37,393 nucleotides of DNA, from contig CALLCO010000204.1 in the NCBI GenBank assembly GCA_937998695.1, positions 1 to 37,393 of the forward strand, read 5' to 3'. Source of the stretch: Candidatus Ozemibacteraceae bacterium (GTDB taxonomy: Bacteria; Muiribacteriota; Ozemobacteria; Ozemobacterales; Ozemobacteraceae). Positions 6,293 to 33,900 of the stretch are shown here, one piece after another. Made by a program: the position numbers and the translations under genes. A model generated the notes under the pieces. That model was not told the DNA's origin. It worked only from the letters and a program-made list of their open reading frames with translations, and searched no databases. Position 1 is the first letter of the stretch. Every line of letters begins with the position of its first letter.

Positions 6293-7783
6293 ATGAGTCA
6301 CCCCATGTTTGCCCGGTTACGCAGCATCCGCAACGCCGCGGGCCCCGTCCGCACCAGGGGTCTCGACGACGAGACCGTCGAACGGTTCCTCGACAGTCAT
6401 CCTCAACTGGGCCAGGCCATCGATGCGGCCGCCCGGCAACGCGAGGAGCTGGGCCGGGAATATGGCGATTGGTTCAAACTCGAAGAGGGTGCTTTGTGCG
6501 CCCTCCTGCAGGAACGCCTGTTGAATTTCTATCCCACCTACGGCATCAACCCCTACGTGCCGCTGGCCGCCGTCGGTCCCTGGATCGTCACCACGCACGG
6601 CGCTGTGCTGCACGACTCCGGCGGGTACGGCATGCTCGGCCTCGGCCACGCCCCGGCCAAGGTGCTCGAGGCGATGGCCCGCCCCTACGTCATGGCCAAC
6701 GTCATGACCCCCGCCTTCAGCCAGAAGCGGCTCACCGACCGCCTGCGCCGCGAGATCGGCCACACCCGCCGCACCGGCTGCCCCTACGACAAATTCGTCT
6801 GCCTGAACAGTGGGTCAGAGGCAGTCACTTTTACGTGCCGCGTCACCGACATTCACGCCAAGCGGATGACCGACCCCGGTGCCCGTCATGCGGGCCGCAC
6901 GCCCGCCAAGCTGGCTGCCATCGAAGGCTTCCACGGTCGCACCGAGGGGCCCGCCCGCCTATCGCATAGCACCCGCGGAATGTATCTGAAACACCTGGCC
7001 TCGTTCCGAAACCCCGACCGCATCAACTACATCCCCTTCAACGACCTTGCCGCCCTGCGCCACGCCTTCGCCCAGGCCGAGCGCGACAGCCTCTTCTACG
7101 AGGCCGTCTTCCTCGAACCCGTGATGGGGGAAGGCATCCCCGGCCTCGCCCTCACCCGCGCCTTCTACGACGAGGCCCGCCGCCTCAGCCGCGAGATGGG
7201 CAGCTTGCTCGTCGTCGACTCCATCCAGGCCGCCCTGCGCGCCCAGGGGTGCCTCAGCCTCGTCGACTACCCCGGCTTCGAGGACTGTGACCCACCTGAC
7301 ATGGAGACCTATTCCAAAGCCCTCAACGCCGGTCAGTATCCGCTGTCGGTCATCGCCCTCCGCCAGGAGGTCGCCGACATCTACGTGCAGGGCCTGTACG
7401 GCAACACCATGACCACCAACCCCCGCGCCCTCGAAGTAGCGTGCGAGGTGCTCGACAGCATCACTCCAGAACTGCGCCAGAATATCCGCGACCGTGGCCT
7501 CGAATTCGTCCGGAAGTTCCTAGCCCTGGCCGGGGAGTTCCCCGGCGCTGTCGACCAGGTGGTCGGCACCGGCCTGATGGTCAGCGTCATGCTCAACCCC
7601 CAGAAATACAAGGTCACAGGCAAGGCCGGGTTCGAGGAATGGCTCCGGATCAACGGCATCGAGATGATCCATGGCGGCGAGTATGGCCTGCGGTTCACCC
7701 CATCGTTCGACATCACCTCGGCCGAAGTCGACCTGATCGTCGAGATGGTCCGCCGCGGCCTGCGCGACCTCGGTTCCCGCTAG
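6293..7783 (+). CDS. Class-III PLP-dependent aminotransferase family protein
   Basis: GGYGMLGLGHAPAKVLEAM, NSGSEAVTFTCRV, AIEGFHGRTEG, EPVMGEG, VVDSIQAALRAQG, METYSKALNAGQYPLSVIAL (PLP-Lys region). SD caggaggaaagg before ATG at 6293. Confidence 0.85.
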   Translation: MSHPMFARLRSIRNAAGPVRTRGLDDETVERFLDSHPQLGQAIDAAARQREELGREYGDWFKLEEGALCALLQERLLNFYPTYGINPYVPLAAVGPWIVTTHGAVLHDSGGYGMLGLGHAPAKVLEAMARPYVMANVMTPAFSQKRLTDRLRREIGHTRRTGCPYDKFVCLNSGSEAVTFTCRVTDIHAKRMTDPGARHAGRTPAKLAAIEGFHGRTEGPARLSHSTRGMYLKHLASFRNPDRINYIPFNDLAALRHAFAQAERDSLFYEAVFLEPVMGEGIPGLALTRAFYDEARRLSREMGSLLVVDSIQAALRAQGCLSLVDYPGFEDCDPPDMETYSKALNAGQYPLSVIALRQEVADIYVQGLYGNTMTTNPRALEVACEVLDSITPELRQNIRDRGLEFVRKFLALAGEFPGAVDQVVGTGLMVSVMLNPQKYKVTGKAGFEEWLRINGIEMIHGGEYGLRFTPSFDITSAEVDLIVEMVRRGLRDLGSR

Positions 7784-7796
7784 ACCGACGATCGAT

Positions 7797-7944
7797 GCCG
7801 CCCGCCAAGCCCAAGGGGGCCGCTCCGTCCCCTGCCCGCCGGGACATAGTCGCTCGCCATCCGGATGCCCTCACCGTCCGGATCGCCATTCCTAAAGGCG
7901 CGTCCCTGCTGGAGATCGAAGAGATCTGCACCAGTCTCGTATGA
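7797..7944 (+). pseudogene. Truncated ORF resembling the run-in to a Fis-type HTH domain; stop supplied by the family-2 element end
   Basis: MPPAKPKGAAPSPARRDIVARHPDALTVRIAIPKGASLLEIEEICTSLV*; 'IPKGASLLEIEEI' resembles the segment preceding Fis/NtrC-type HTH. TGA lies inside TATGACTACCG. Confidence 0.4.
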
Positions 7945-8205
7945 CTACCGTAGTTTCTCAACCCCCGGGGCCGGGTTCGCCTCCAGACACCATTCCGCAG
8001 GCTCGGATCGGTGGTCTCGGGTTCGGCTCGATTCGTCGTCCGAACCTCGCAGAATCGCTAGCCATGGCGATCTGCGAGGCGTGAGGTCATCCAGGCCTCG
8101 CGGGACGTCGAAGCGGCCTCTCCCTCGGACCGATCCGGCCTGCTCCATGTGTGTCTTCCGGCGAATCCGGCCCCAGGGCGGATGTTTCAAATACGGTAGT
8201 CATAC
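7939..8205. mobile_element. Foldback/MITE-like element (dispersed family 2), complete copy
   Basis: 14-bp perfect terminal inverted repeats GTATGACTACCGTA (7939-7952 / 8192-8205). Further paired blocks: GGGGCCGGGTTCGCC (7967-7981) vs ggcgaatccggcccc (8160-8174); AGACAC vs GTGTCT; GCAGGCTCGGATCGGT (7997-8012) vs accgatccggcctgc (8129-8143); central hairpin CCTCGCAGAATCGC-TAGCCATG-GCGATCTGCGAGG (8045-8079). Confidence 0.8.
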
Positions 8206-8456
8206 TAGGCCCACCGTTTCAGGCGGTGCTGCCCCCGCAGAGTTCTGGCAAGTGCGTTGGCGGTTCACCCGCCTGTTGGCTGTTCTTCGCCTTGGGCAAC
8301 TCGTGCCCAGCCTCGTCGCCCGGGCCGATCAACAACCATTGACCGCCAGGAAGCCTTTGGCGGGACTGCCACCGCCTTTCATCCAGGGGGCCCACAACCG
8401 TCGTCTCACGGGGCCGGACCCTGGGTGACGACGGCCTTTCGTGCAGAGACGTCCCG

Positions 8457-15938: not shown

Positions 15939-18900
15939 ATGGTATCATGCAAGCCGATCATGAACCAACCGCCACCTGCCTTCGCCCGCCACCCCCCCCT
16001 CCCGGCAGGCGGGCCGTGGCCTCCGGCCAACCCCGACGGCTCCCGGCGACCCGTCGGCTTTTTCTGGTTTCCGTGGGGCAAGTGGCTGATCGCCATGGTC
16101 GTCTTCTTCCACCTCCCGTTCCTGTTGCTCAATTTCGGCATGGGAACGCTGTGGACCCGCCGCGAAACCCAGGCCCGGGAACAGGCCATGAACCAGCTCG
16201 AAATCCATGTCTCCGATTTGGCGGTCCAGGGGAACACACGAGGGTTTATTTCTCGTTCTCTGCAGCGCGTCCATGACGAGGCCTCGGCTTTTCCGGCCCG
16301 GCGACCAGCCATTTTGCGGCGCTGGCAACGTCTTCTCGATCGCGAGTTTCCCAGGTTCTTCCATTGGTATGTCACCGACCGAAATGGCGATCTGATCGCC
16401 GAATGCTCTTCTCCCCAGGCGCCACGCCGGGTCATCCGCGAGTTGTATCAGGTGGCGGTGTCGAAGTGGCGCAACGACCCACAGCATGATGACCTGCGCC
16501 GACGATTCCAGGAGCGAATCTGGCCGTTCATCGGGCCCCAGGCCCGCAGGGATTTCCTGGCCCCGCTGGGTCCGGGACAGTCGACCATCATGGCGGAAAC
16601 CCGGTTCGGGGAAGAGAAGACCTTCTTCTTCATCCACCTCACCGCTGAGGGAGCGCTGTTCGCCCACATCAACCAACGGCCCGACTGGGCTCGACGAGCG
16701 CTCGACGTTCTGGTGCGACGCTTGAACCGGCGACGCGGGCCGATGGGCTGGCGGGCCGGGACACTCATCCCCAGCGAAACCAAACCGCTTCATCCCGAGG
16801 TGGCCGCGGCCCACCTCGCTTTCGAGCGCACCGGGCAGGCCCGGTATTTCGGCCGGACAAGCCTGGTCATCTTCCGCCGTATCCATCCAGGACTGCTGCT
16901 GTGGCTGCAGCGTCCCGCCCCCAGCGACAAGATCGCACAGCAAGCCCGGTGGTGGCTCGTTCTCGGCGGAGCCCTCCTCGGGTTCCTGATCCACGTGGGG
17001 AGTTTCCGGGTATTCAGCGGGCGCTGGCCGCTCACCCTGTCGATCCGACATCGCCTGATCCTGTTGTTTCTGTTCATGGCCGGGCTTCCCCTGCTGGCGG
17101 TGTGGTTGTTGGGGGTCGATTACCTTTCCCGCCAGGAGGGCATCCTGCGGGCCCGCGCCGAAACCGAGATCCAGGATACCTTGCGCGGCTTCGACCAGCA
17201 GTTTCTGCGCGAACTGTCCCTGTTGAACGACCGCCTGCGCGAGGCCATCGACCTGTCCTTCGGCTGGGGGGGGAAACGGCCGCCCGTGCCCCAGCGGAGG
17301 AGTCGCTGGTTCCGTCGACAGTTCCAGGTCGAGAAACTCTACCTGTTCGATCAAGCGGGCCAGGTCGTCTATTCCCACCCCCCGCCCGGGGATGAAGGGA
17401 CCGAAAGCGAACGGCGGTTTATCGGCAAGCTTTCGGCCAAAGCGTTGCGCGATCTCAATCAGGAACCCCCCACCGAGGCGGGCCAGGCAACCGACCTCGT
17501 CTGGTCGGCCATCGGGGGCGACGAGGAGAGTTGGAAAGGGATCCTGCGCGACCTGGGCAAAATCGTGTATTTCGATCTTTCGGGCGAACAGACCTACGCC
17601 TTCATGCACGCCATCAAGGATCGCTCGGGAATCAGTCGCCGGTTTATCGTGCTCACCTGGCAACGGCAGCACTTGCACACCCAGTTCGTCCGCAAGCACC
17701 TCCTTGAGCAGCAACGCCTTATTCCCGGCGGACGGCTGTGGGCAACCACCCCGACGGGGGGGATCGTGGCCGCCCCAACAGAGCTCGACCGGCTAAACCC
17801 GCGGTTGTTCCAGCGGTTGGCCCCGCTGCTGAACGCGCGTCAGAGCACATCATTCCGGGTGGGGAAAGGTGACGCCCCCCGATTGCTGGTCGGGTTCGCC
17901 GCCCGGGAAATGAATGGCCTGATCCTGTGGGGGGCGCGAACCGAGAGCGACATCCAGCGCGACCTTCACCAGTTCAGGTTCGGACTGGGACTATTCCTGG
18001 CCGGCATCGCCCTGCTCGCCCTGGGGCTCGGTGGCCACCTGTCCGAGGGTTTCCTGGTGCCGGTGGCGGACGTGTCGCGGGGGGTGGAAGCCATCCAGCG
18101 ACGCGACTTCCGGCACCGGGTGCCGGTCGGCCCACCCGACGAACTGGGGCGCCTAGCCGCCACCTTCAACCAGGTCATGGAGGGGCTCGCCGACCTCGAG
18201 GTCGGCCGGTTCGTCCAGGAGAACCTGATGCCGCGCGAGGAGATCGTCTGGGGCGAGTATCGGGTGTTTGGGCGCAGCCGGTTCCTGACCGCCCTGTCGG
18301 GCGACTATTTCGATCTGAAAGTGCTGCCCGGGAACCGACTGTTCTTTTTGGTCGGCGACGTGGCGGGGCACGGGGTGGGCGCGGCGCTGGTCATGGCGAT
18401 GGCCAAGGCGCTGGTCGAGCGGGAGATCCCGCGCGGGACGACGGCGTCCGGCTTCCTGACGATCCTCAACCAAGTGCTGCGGGCCACGTTGCGCCGGGGC
18501 AGCATGATGACGTGCGCGGTGGGCCTCCTGGACATGCGGACGCACCGACTCAGCTTTGCCAACGCCGGCCAATGCCCGGCGGTGCAGCTCACCGGGCCGG
18601 ACACGTGGCAGGAGGTGGCGCTTCCTTCCAAGCCCCTGGGGGTCAGCAGCTCATGGCAGGGGAAGGAGCTGATCGAGGAGTTCAGCCCTGGTCACCGCTG
18701 GCTGCTGTTCACCGACGGTCTGATCGAAGCCAGGACTCCCGGCGGGATGCTGGGCTTCGCCCCCTTCCAGGCTGCCGCCGCCCGCCTGGTCGGCAGCAAC
18801 CCCCGGGCCGGCTGGGAGGCCTTGATGGCTTGGCACGACGCCGCACGCCAGGGCATTCCCCCCACCGATGACATGACCCTGCTCATCATTGCCCGGCACG

Positions 18901-18953: not shown

Positions 18954-19192
18954 ATGATCCGGTCGCTGCATCGCGAGAAAGGCCTCGATCAACGCGAGAT
19001 CGCGGTCATGGTGGGAATGAACCAGCTCATAATCAATGTCTCCGACCTGGCGGTCCCCAGGGGAACGCCCGGGGATTCTTCTATCGCGCCCTCCCGCGCG
19101 CCCCTAATATGACTACCGCAGTTTCTCAACCCCTGGGAGGTCACTGACCGGAACGGGGAGCCGATCCCCGATGGCCGGCACGGCCGACTGAG
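18954..19192 (+). pseudogene. Composite remnant: transposase-like HTH fragment joined to a SpoIIE-sensor N-terminal fragment, split by a family-2 terminus
   Basis: MIRSLHREKGLDQREIAVMVGMNQLIINVSDLAVPRGTPGDSS... (cf. MNQLEIHVSDLAVQGNTRGFIS in the 15939 gene), then tatgactaccgcagtttctcaacccctggga, then VTDRNGEPIPDGRHGRLS* (cf. VTDRNGDLIAE). Confidence 0.75.
19108..19138. repeat. Solo left terminus of family-2 element
   Basis: TATGACTACCGCAGTTTCTCAACCCCTGGGA vs 7940-7970 TATGACTACCGTAGTTTCTCAACCCCCGGGG. Confidence 0.8.
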
Positions 19193-25213: not shown

Positions 25214-25390
25214 TCCCATTCCCCTTTCCCGGCACCCGGCCATCGGTTCGCTCCCCAGGCCCCGAGCTGGATCGGCTCCGCATGGGTGGCATCATCCCGT
25301 CGGGCCCGGTCACCATCTTACCAGTTTCCCAGCGCCCGGTCAGGAAGTGCCTCAGGCCAAACAGGGTCACGTGCTTCGCCGGCCATCGTC

Positions 25391-25655
25391 CTGGCAACCA
25401 GGGCCTGGGGCCGGGTTTGTTTCCGAGCCCATTCTGCCAGCTCGACTCGGCCGAGGGGCGGCCCTGTGGCCTCAGACTCGGCCAGGCTCGAATCTGATTC
25501 CAACCTCGCCGACGCCCTGGGCCGCCCCCGGGCGGGGCGGCCCCGGCCCTCCGAGCTTCGCGGGACGTCGATTCGGCTACGCCTGGCTGGCCCTCGGAGC
25601 GAATGGAGCGGCCTGCCCGCAGAGAGGGCTTCCATGCCCGCCCCCACCTCAAGAA
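25391..25655. repeat. Diverged copy of foldback family 2
   Basis: CTGGGGCCGGGTTTGTTTCCGAGCCCATTCTGCCAGCTCG vs CCGGGGCCGGGTTCGCCTCCAGACACCATTCCGCAGGCTCG; CTTCGCGGGACGTCGATTCGGC vs CCTCGCGGGACGTCGAAGCGGC; central hairpin GGGCCGCCCC-CGGGC-GGGGCGGCCC. Confidence 0.65.
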
Positions 25656-28826: not shown

Positions 28827-28975
28827 CCAGCCCTGACCCAGCCTGACCAGCCTGACCAACTCGGCCAGCCTGACCAACTCGACCAGCCTGACCAACTCAA
28901 CCAGCCTGACTAACTCGACCAGCCTGACCAGCCTGACCAGCCGAGACAAGCCTGACCCAATCCGACCAGACCCGG
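28827..28975. repeat. Intergenic GACCAGCCT / GACCAACTC minisatellite
   Basis: Alternating 9-bp units cctgaccaa-ctcgaccag, about 15 imperfect copies. Confidence 0.9.
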
Positions 28976-30906: not shown

Positions 30907-33900
30907 TCAGACCCGGCGTTCGAGGACGACCACCGTGAAGTCGTCGGGGCGCGGCCGGCCGGCCTGGACGCAGGGGTGGCGCTCGACCAGCAGGCGGGGC
31001 ACCTGATCGAGAGGCTCGCCACTCCACCGGATGAAGTGAGGCAGGAGTTCGTCGAACCCTGAAGCTCCCTTGACCCGTGACAGCGATTCCGCCAACCCGT
31101 CGGTGTAGCAGAGCAGACGTTCCCCGGGCTGCAAGATCAGCCGCCGCGGCTCGACCTTGACGGTCGGACGGATGCCGATGGGGAAGCCGCGCGTGGGCTG
31201 CTCGCGCAGGCGCCCATCGACCGTGCGCAGGTGCGGGTAGGTGTGGCCGCAGTTGAAGATCTCGAGCTCGCCGGGGGCGGTGCCGGTCCGCACCAGGGTC
31301 ATGGGCAGGAAGGCCCGTTTCCCCATCGTGGAATAGACGACCTCGTTGAGCGTCGCCAGCAGTTCGGAGGTCGGGACCCGCTGCCGGCGTGCCGCCAGGA
31401 CGGTGGCCTTGGCCATCGCCATGATCAGGGAGGCCGGCACGCCGTGGCCCGAGACGTCACCCAACAGCACGGTCAGGCTGCCATCCTCTTCCGCCACGTA
31501 GTCGAAGTAATCACCACCCAGCTCGGAGGCCGGCAGGGAGAACCCCGCCACGGCCCATTCCCCCGCCGCCAGGAAGGCCGGCGGCCACAGGCGTTCCTGC
31601 ACCGCGCGACCGAGGCCTAACTCCTCGAACCGTTCCAGCAGGCTGTTGAACGCGGTGGCCAGCTCGCCCAGCTCGTCACGATCGCCGGGCGGCAAGCGGC
31701 GATCGTACCGCTTGGCGGCGAGATCGCGCAGACCATCCCCCAAATTGGCCACCGGGCCGAGGACCGCCCCCGCCAGCAGATGGGCCAACAGCGCGGTGAA
31801 CACCACCGCTCCCAGCGCCGACCAGAGCATGCGCGTCCGCAGCGCGCCCAGTGCCGCCTCGAGGGGAGCGGCCGGCACGAACGCCAGCAGCAACCGCCCA
31901 CGCATCTGCTGTCCCGGCCACCCGGCGATCAGGCGCGGCTGCCCTTCGAAGGGGATCATCCCCGTGGTCAGCTGCCCGCGTCGACGCAACGCGTGGAAGA
32001 AGGCCCGCAGGGGCCGGTTGACCCGCAACCAGGGGCGCATGGGAAAAACCGCCCGCACCGTGTCCGGCCGCTCGGGGGTTTGCCCCGCCCCGGTCAGCCG
32101 ATAGACCGGCGTCTCGCGCACCGCCGCCAGACGGGTGCCGTCCTCGAGGGGCCGCACCGGCAGAAAGCGACGCAGATGGAAGTCGACCAGATCCTCGTAG
32201 CGCCAATACAGCACGATCAGGGCGGGTCTCGGCCTGGCCTGGCCGATCAACTCGGAAAAAAGGAAGCCCTGCTCCCGACCCCACCCGAACGGCACGACCC
32301 CACCCGTGGGGAATGGAAATGGGGTGCAACCATACGGCAGCTCCGGGACCGGCACCGCGGCGGGAGGCCCCCCCGCGCGGATCGCTCCTTCCACAGCCGC
32401 CGCCGGGCCGGAAGCCCTTGGCCACCCAGCCGATCCGGCAGGGACGGCACCCGCAAGGTGCGAGGCCAGCATCTCCAGGACGGGGTTGCCGTGGAACGTC
32501 CCACCGATTTCCCGAACCGGTTCCCCCGGGCGCCACAGGAATCCGCCCCGGGCGCGCAGTTCCGGGATCTGCTCGGCAAAGGCCAGGCCTAACCGCTCGA
32601 GGGGGACCGGGGGTACGGAAGCCGCCGGTGGCAGCAGGCGCCGAACACTCGCTTCCGCCTCGATCCGGCCAAGGGCCAGCTTGCCGTCGAAATCGCGGAG
32701 GAGGTCGGCCAGCCGCTGCCAGGTCTCCTGGAAGAGGATCTGCCGGCGCTGGTGCAGGTGGTCCCAGGCCAGGAAACCCAGGATGGTGGCGGGAATGACC
32801 GCGGTCAGCGCGAACAGGGCGAGGATCTTCCAGCGGATCGACACGAACGGGCGCTGCGACGACGCGGTCAGGAAGAACAGCACGGTCGCCAGACCGACCA
32901 GCAGAGCGAGTTCTCCCCACCGGAAGGCGGTCCTCAGCTCGTGATCGGCGGTCCCGCCGTCATCGGGGGCGGCCGCGGCCAGCAGATAGCGGGAATCCAA
33001 CCCCAGAGTCGCCCATAGGTGTCCGCCCTGCCGGAGGCGTGTCCCGGGTTCGTGGGCATAGCGGGCCCCGATGGTGTCGAGGTCGTGGCGTGGACCGCCC
33101 ATCGGCCCGGCCACGAGACGCCGCGCCTGCAGATCGTACAGGAACAACGACCGTTCCGGAGTAGAGCGGGCGAGCAAGGCCCGACGAAGGCCGACCTGGG
33201 GGCCACGGAGGAGCGCCATCGGTGCCACCCCAGGCCCATCCCTGCCGGGCGGCGAGGTGGGTCTGCGGAGGAGCGTCATCCCTGGGGGCCGGGCGACGGA
33301 GGGGAGCCACCCGTCCGCTTCCCCCTGGAGGCCGGGTTGATCGGAATGACGGTGGAAAAAGGCGAGCAACCCCCAGGAAGGGGCGAGATGAAAGAAGACA
33401 CCCGCCTTGCGCGCCCGATCGGGGAAAGCCAGCCAGCCCGGCGCCGTTTCGAGGGCGGCAAGATCGGCAGGCTCACCGCCAAGCAGGTCGGCCACAGCGG
33501 CGGCCCGGGGGGCGAGGCGGCCAGCCACCCGCCCCCGGTCGCGGCGCAGGGCCGCCATCAGGGCTTCGGCGGGGGCAGCGGGTTCCTTCCCCCCCACCTG
33601 CGCGACCAGGCGGTCATCGGCCCCGAACAGGAGGAAGGTCGCCATCCCTGGGAAGCGCCGCGCCTGAGCCCGGGTGCGGGCCTGCAGGAAGCGCATCGGT
33701 TGGGGGTGCCGCAAGGCCCGCCGGACCATCGCCCGCCACGACCGCCGCGCCGCCTCGCCCGGGTCGGCCAGCGGTTGCAGCTCGATCAGCAGGTCGTCCA
33801 GGGCGGCCCAGGTCAGGCTGCGGGCCGCTTCCCGGCGGGCGTCGAGCAGGGCCCCCAGGCCGAAATCGGCCAGCAGCAGGGGGAACCCGCCGACCAAGGT

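Follow-up and report, generated by a model that had tools for sequence, protein, structure and literature searches.

A foldback MITE with IS701-type ends and a covarying Y-shaped core that recurs between other transposon ends in related genera

Setting and fold of the element

The window analyzed here, the whole stretch of 37,393 nucleotides, corresponds to contig 204 of an assembly that totals 4.53 Mb in 324 contigs (completeness, 92%; broken at repeats). A class-III aminotransferase gene ends at position 7783, and the opposite strand carries a serpin gene (9311 to 8457); between these converging genes lies a 265-bp element at positions 7940 to 8204, a whole copy of the foldback MITE family that we term family A. 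Serpin (protease inhibitor) genes are unusual in bacteria, and this one is a neighbor of the element. A short frame (7795 to 7944) enters the element, whose own end supplies its TGA stop, and may be a gene that the insertion truncated. Family-A elements contain no transposase gene; their open frames vary among copies, and their length of 265 bp lies below 500 bp.

A preliminary description of this DNA regarded nearly all of positions 7939 to 8205 as one imperfect palindrome with perfect 14-bp inverted ends, and both observations hold. The region forms one long imperfect hairpin, and GTATGACTACCGTA is present at 7939 to 7952 and again, inverted, at 8192 to 8205; the outermost G/C of these ends is part of a 4-bp target duplication and lies outside the element proper. 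Folded as RNA, positions 7930 to 8215 yield −179.2 kcal/mol, compared with −108.8 ± 5.1 kcal/mol for shuffled sequences (z = −13.9), and none of 200 shuffles matched the native energy. The single central loop proposed earlier for the apex is replaced in our fold by two adjacent hairpins, at 8045 to 8079 and 8080 to 8102, and the fold is therefore Y-shaped.

Within the element, a conserved core of 190 nt (7976 to 8165), which occurs in five genomes, was delimited using a covariance model (R1) and a 27-copy alignment (A3). Its architecture consists of a long stem with two 3-by-3 internal loops and the two hairpins at the apex. On the plus strand, each side of the internal loops reads TCC (loop 1, 7982 to 7984 and 8157 to 8159; loop 2, 7994 to 7996 and 8144 to 8146). 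Read on the same strand, the first apical hairpin is CAGAATCGC..GGCGATCTG with a single bulged base and the second is CGTGAGGTC-ATCCA-GGCCTCGCG; both rest on the fold and on the 27-copy alignment. Rfam models gave no match at gathering level across the window and, at the element, only two implausible subthreshold matches to animal RNAs (E about 1).

The window also contains other repeats. A 60-bp tandem repeat (CACGGATGGCGCTCCTCCGC...) occupies the contig start (1 to 146), with inverted partial copies at 33199 to 33284. At 28828 to 28942, an 18-bp unit (ACCAGCCTGACCAACTCG) is repeated in tandem, and a 40-bp direct repeat that starts ATGAACCAGCTC is found at 16188 to 16227 and 19017 to 19056 (88% identical).

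Family A and a matching IS701 element

A DNA search of the source genome retrieved family A at 40 full or partial places, including the window copy, with 87 to 99% identity; further copies thus accompany a folding energy well outside that of shuffled sequence. Adding matches from end-pattern and profile searches and from a family-B query (see below) brings the hand-summed total to ∼59 places, whole or partial. These include truncated and contig-end copies, and a single copy broken up in assembly may in some cases have been counted as two. Copies account for 0.38% of the bases in a 1.47-Mb sample but lie at 13 of its 210 contig ends; the assembly therefore breaks at the element, and the copy count is uncertain. 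The earlier suggestion that related copies within the window indicate a family is right as to the family, which is genome-wide. Apart from the element, the window contains just a 30-bp piece of another family-A copy, truncated to its left end (19108 to 19137, plus strand), and a degenerate relative of the core, described below.

Thirteen full copies show 91 to 98% identity to their own consensus, and family A has spread recently, as a burst, in the source genome. The family-A DNA query gave no match in 56 other genomes, including two of the same genus. Two minus-strand copies, each at position 1501 of its locus (L048 and L042), are internal-deletion forms of ∼130 to 150 bp that keep both ends and have lost most of the core.

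Oriented copies ending in TATGACTACCG are flanked by 4-bp YTAR-like tetramers, as a target duplication would produce. These direct repeats are perfect in 6 of 16 copies (ATAG, TTAG, CTAT, CTAG, CTAG, and TTAA), compared with 0.93 perfect pairs in shuffled pairings (1 of 2,000 as high), and the mean tetramer match is 3.00 of 4, compared with 2.14 (0 of 2,000 as high). No signal was detected for family-A copies at duplication lengths of 2, 3, 5, 6, 8, or 9 bp. The duplication of the window copy is imperfect, with CTCG on the left (7936 to 7939) and CTAG on the right (8205 to 8208), both read on the plus strand.

A match for the ends was found in another, related genus. Among 24 host-family genomes searched with an extended end pattern, one (G003) was positive, with eleven ends, two of which face each other 1.4 kb apart. 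They bound an intact insertion sequence of 1,415 bp (L314) with CTAG on each side, which encodes a 452-amino-acid transposase that matches NCBIfam NF033540 (IS701) at 363 bits (cutoff, 150) and Pfam DDE_5. Family-A ends are identical to those of L314 at 15 of 16 bp on either side: in the window copy, the left end, TATGACTACCGTAGTT (7940 to 7955, plus strand), corresponds to the left end of L314, and the right end, TATGACTACCGTATTTG (8188 to 8204, read inward on the minus strand), matches its right end, TATGACTGCCGTATTTG. Only the outer 16 bp are common to the two elements, with no match beyond the ends; the ends are therefore those of IS701, and the interior is not. Derivation of family A from this insertion sequence by internal deletion is ruled out, as the interior has no match to L314. 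Members of the IS701 family have been reported to generate 4- or 5-bp repeats (PMC8024623), and ISTth8 makes a 4-bp duplication (PMC6352166). The ends, the target duplication, the copy number, and a transposase-bearing IS701 in a related genus together bear out the earlier guess that the element is a MITE.

In the source genome, a decayed homologue of the L314 transposase is present at C35 (72% over 122 amino acids; the wider match contains two stops), and C40 of this fragmented assembly carries a separate DDE_5 fragment. The assembly, which is 92% complete and broken at repeats, yielded no intact IS701 bearing these ends; searches with PF01609 and PF13546 gave no locus with TATGACTACCG ends, and no pair of such ends 1 to 2 kb apart occurs within 1.47 Mb of the genome. 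IS701 itself is decayed in the source genome or missing from its assembly. When GTDB contigs were scanned with the 18-mer CATGGCGATCTGCGAGGC, the only matches were single ones scattered among unrelated taxa, which we took as chance. Movement of family A would proceed in trans, with an IS701 transposase binding the TATGACTACCG ends and inserting the element at YTAR sites, where a 4-bp duplication would result.

One covarying core between different ends

A profile built from the element detects diverged relatives of its interior (from about base 25 to about base 245) that lie between different ends. In the source genome, a second family, family B, has CAGGGTCATTTGA ends, a 9-bp duplication, and the same core as family A; family B is the older of the two. 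Its best relative (L212, 3306 to 3677) is bounded by CAGGGTCTTTGG and CAGGGTCATTTGA within a perfect 9-bp duplication, GTCGTGACT, and another copy (L304) shows the pair TTCAATCCG/TTCGATCCG. The degenerate relative in the window (25362 to 25615, plus strand) was detected by nhmmer (E = 8e-9) and by alignment, and it folds with a z of only −1.8; it has a B-like left end, CAGGGTCACGTGC, at 25362 and a core remnant at 25403 to 25615. A transposase for the CAGGGTCATTTGA ends was looked for and not found. Small GC-rich inserts, GCCGCCCGCGGCC, adjoin apical hairpin 2 at an identical position in four copies (L017, L018, L212, and L302); they recur in families A and B, as if passed between families.

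In G003, the genome that carries the intact IS701, elements with CAGGGTCATTTGA-type ends occur both with and without a core. One of 455 bp (L326) has the duplication GTTGAAGGA and a diverged core inside, and one of 155 bp (L323) has the duplication ATTCAGAAGG and no core. At L358, a unit AAGGTGTGAAAA..TTTTCACACCTT is bounded by CGGCG on either side, and L323 reads GCCCGGCGGTCC across the corresponding point; judged by hand comparison of the two sequences, L323 looks like an empty version of the site occupied at L358. Core copies in this genome end in AAGGTGTGAAAA, with CGGCG or CGCCG at each side, and most are nested in CAGGGTCATTTGA elements, so not all are independent insertions.

Core copies in a third genome (G008) have GTGRACTTTCGCAC ends and 5-bp duplications (CGCAT, AGAGT, and TGTTT by automatic search; TTAAA and TTGAA in hand-read flanks), with two more copies, also read by hand, matching at 4 of 5 positions. 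In a fourth (G016), two further sets of ends, both approximate, lie around AAAATCTTTGGGCAGGTA and GTTGCCCAGAGG. One core-bearing copy of this genome, with other ends, is adjoined on its left flank (L344) by a short core-less derivative with the ends GTTGCCCAGAGG..CCTCTGGGCAAC. Duplications of 4, 5, and 9 bp, lengths that rest on copies from the source genome (G000), G003, and G008, with those of G016 left out, imply different transposases.

Conservation of the core was gauged using two alignments. In A1, a plain MAFFT alignment of ten cores from which model R1 was derived, 96.2% of cells pair, and two-sided changes occur in 30 of 69 pairs, compared with 2 to 6 when partners are slid. A search with R1 over 40 genomes of the phylum returned core matches in the source genome (at least 47), G003 (at least 13), G008 and G016 (at least 9 each), and G014 (at least 1). 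All five genomes belong to the same host family, and the core is present in three other genera at no fewer than 9 to 13 copies each; since no more than 65 candidates were scored per genome, whereas high-GC genomes have thousands, absence elsewhere is uncertain. Full-length matches mostly span 189 to 192 nt, with small inserts in some copies. In the 27 copies of A3, 91.1% of cells are paired, 53 of 69 pairs show two-sided changes (10 to 24 in slid controls), and covariation is 0.571 (at most 0.144 in slid controls), where the cells are not independent events because copies within one genome are related. As A3 was fitted to the structure of the model, it leans toward that structure; the plain-MAFFT A1 gives the same verdict.

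Identity between lineages is higher in unpaired columns (0.680) than in paired columns (0.501; 2 of 10,000 permutations). The two 3-by-3 internal loops (TCC/TTC-like on the plus strand), the bulge of hairpin 1, and both apical loops are kept in place across genera. Conserved loops with covarying stems are what one would expect if a strand is read in its folded state, and covariation combined with unpaired letters that are better conserved than paired ones indicates that the fold is probably under selection and probably outlives the transposon ends that carry it. The core is older than the IS701-type ends, and its shape rather than its sequence is conserved in at least four genera. The earlier suggestion of a long structured RNA is partly right, in that the core is a conserved, covarying fold of a single strand, which may be RNA or DNA.

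Readings of the fold and relation to known elements

Taken together, we consider it very likely that the element is a foldback MITE with IS701-type ends, moved in trans, whose interior is an older, selected Y-shaped module that reuses transposase ends. Selection on the folded single strand, as hairpin DNA or as a transcript, would keep the shape of the module, which may persist by adopting the ends of any transposase that happens to be available. Ends could be exchanged when one element inserts into another and the outer or inner ends are then lost, a route suggested by the nested copies in G003.

Mismatches in the core stems comprise 58 G-T and 42 A-C cells, which is about equal. In 20 of 24 copies, the more stable fold is that of the minus strand, by a mean of 7.6 kcal/mol, a preference that probably reflects purine-rich loops. 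It is possible, if rather doubtful, that transposons have spread the core as a structured RNA gene or regulator, such as a transcript with GGA loops that binds CsrA. The conserved loops and covarying stems fit such an RNA, as does the better fold of the minus strand, whose loops would read mostly GGA or GAA; CsrA is encoded in 20 of 22 host-family genomes, and its presence together with these loops makes a CsrA-binding transcript a tentative possibility. However, neither strand is favored by the wobble pairs, no Rfam model matches the window at gathering level, and GGA is absent from some loops (apical loop 2 reads CGA in G003, and some source-genome copies have GGC).

Near-equal tolerance of G-T and A-C fits a folded site in single-stranded DNA for a recombinase or replication protein, comparable to attC. 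In the fold of integron attC sites, unpaired bases are conserved and the stem sequence is free to vary, and the core likewise conserves its extrahelical bases while its stem covaries freely; such a protein would also explain the end exchange. We nevertheless hold a site of this kind to be a possible but rather doubtful reading, as no candidate protein has been identified and the 4-, 5-, and 9-bp duplications point to ordinary DDE transposases for movement. The likeness to attC is one of function style only: the core is longer, it is accompanied by transposon ends, and no integrase has been identified.

Palindromes are known to self-correct, and the element may instead be an ordinary MITE whose palindrome arose from one inverted duplication, with complementarity kept by mutation (through cruciforms or replication template switching). 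Two-sided changes would then be products of arm-to-arm correction, and G-T and A-C mismatches would be about as frequent as each other, as expected without selection on an RNA strand. Correction should erase mismatched loops, yet the TCC/TTC loops, bulges, and apical loops are kept across genera, which is hard to obtain from arm-to-arm correction alone. Unpaired letters are also more conserved than paired ones, and the core stays near 190 nt in most of the diverged copies, so that we judge this account unlikely. A REP/BIME- or ERIC-type repeat lacking transposon ends would share the intergenic size, the palindrome, and the many copies, but it is very improbable given the clear transposon ends, the 4-bp duplications, the matching IS701, and the length of 265 bp.

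The reading of a selected module with exchangeable ends also sets the element apart from described families. It resembles IS701-derived MITEs in its IS701-matching ends, its 4-bp duplication, its short length, and its lack of a transposase. In the usual account, a MITE arises from its insertion sequence by losing the middle (PMC10969869). Unlike such a MITE, family A has a middle that is unrelated to the insertion sequence and a conserved fold that is common to elements with other ends. The nearest known small mobile palindromes are the ERIC, Correia, RUP, YPAL, and CIR repeats (PMC2229807 and PMC10969869). ERIC, Correia, RUP, and YPAL elements have many copies and stable stem-loops (PMC2229807). 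Each of these has a single set of ends and duplicates TA or a variable target, whereas here one fold, strongly covarying across genera, lies between several sets of ends. Membership in ERIC, Correia, or RUP was rejected on the 4-bp YTAR duplication and the lack of a 2-bp signal, a separation based on the duplication rather than on family sequence. CIR repeats of Caulobacter and Brucella are two-armed, with a phylogenetically conserved RNA fold (PMC2229807); their arms are joined by a linker, they carry a GANTC motif, and their mobility is unclear. By contrast, the present element has a basal stem, transposon ends, and target duplications, differences that rest on description rather than sequence. 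The passages on these repeats in PMC2229807 and PMC10969869 do not mention a single covarying core that occurs with more than one kind of end. A literature search likewise retrieved no account of such end exchange with a covarying core, which is weak evidence of absence. Chances are about even, in our estimation, that these elements represent an undescribed class of mobile module, in which a selected, folded core of ∼190 nt takes on the ends of different transposases across genera.

Bacterial MITE interiors are generally treated as decayed remnants of the parent insertion sequence. In the elements described here, it is the interior that is conserved, whereas the ends can be exchanged. The finding makes it testable whether MITE interiors can be under selection and how a nonautonomous element might survive the loss of its transposase through a switch to a different one. 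It also contributes a structure without an Rfam match that is strongly supported, with 53 of 69 pairs covarying. If the reading is correct, the core would be a passenger that changes vehicles, having obtained ends of the IS701 type and of types that make 9-bp and 5-bp duplications, and its fold would have some role of its own, either for the element or for the host.
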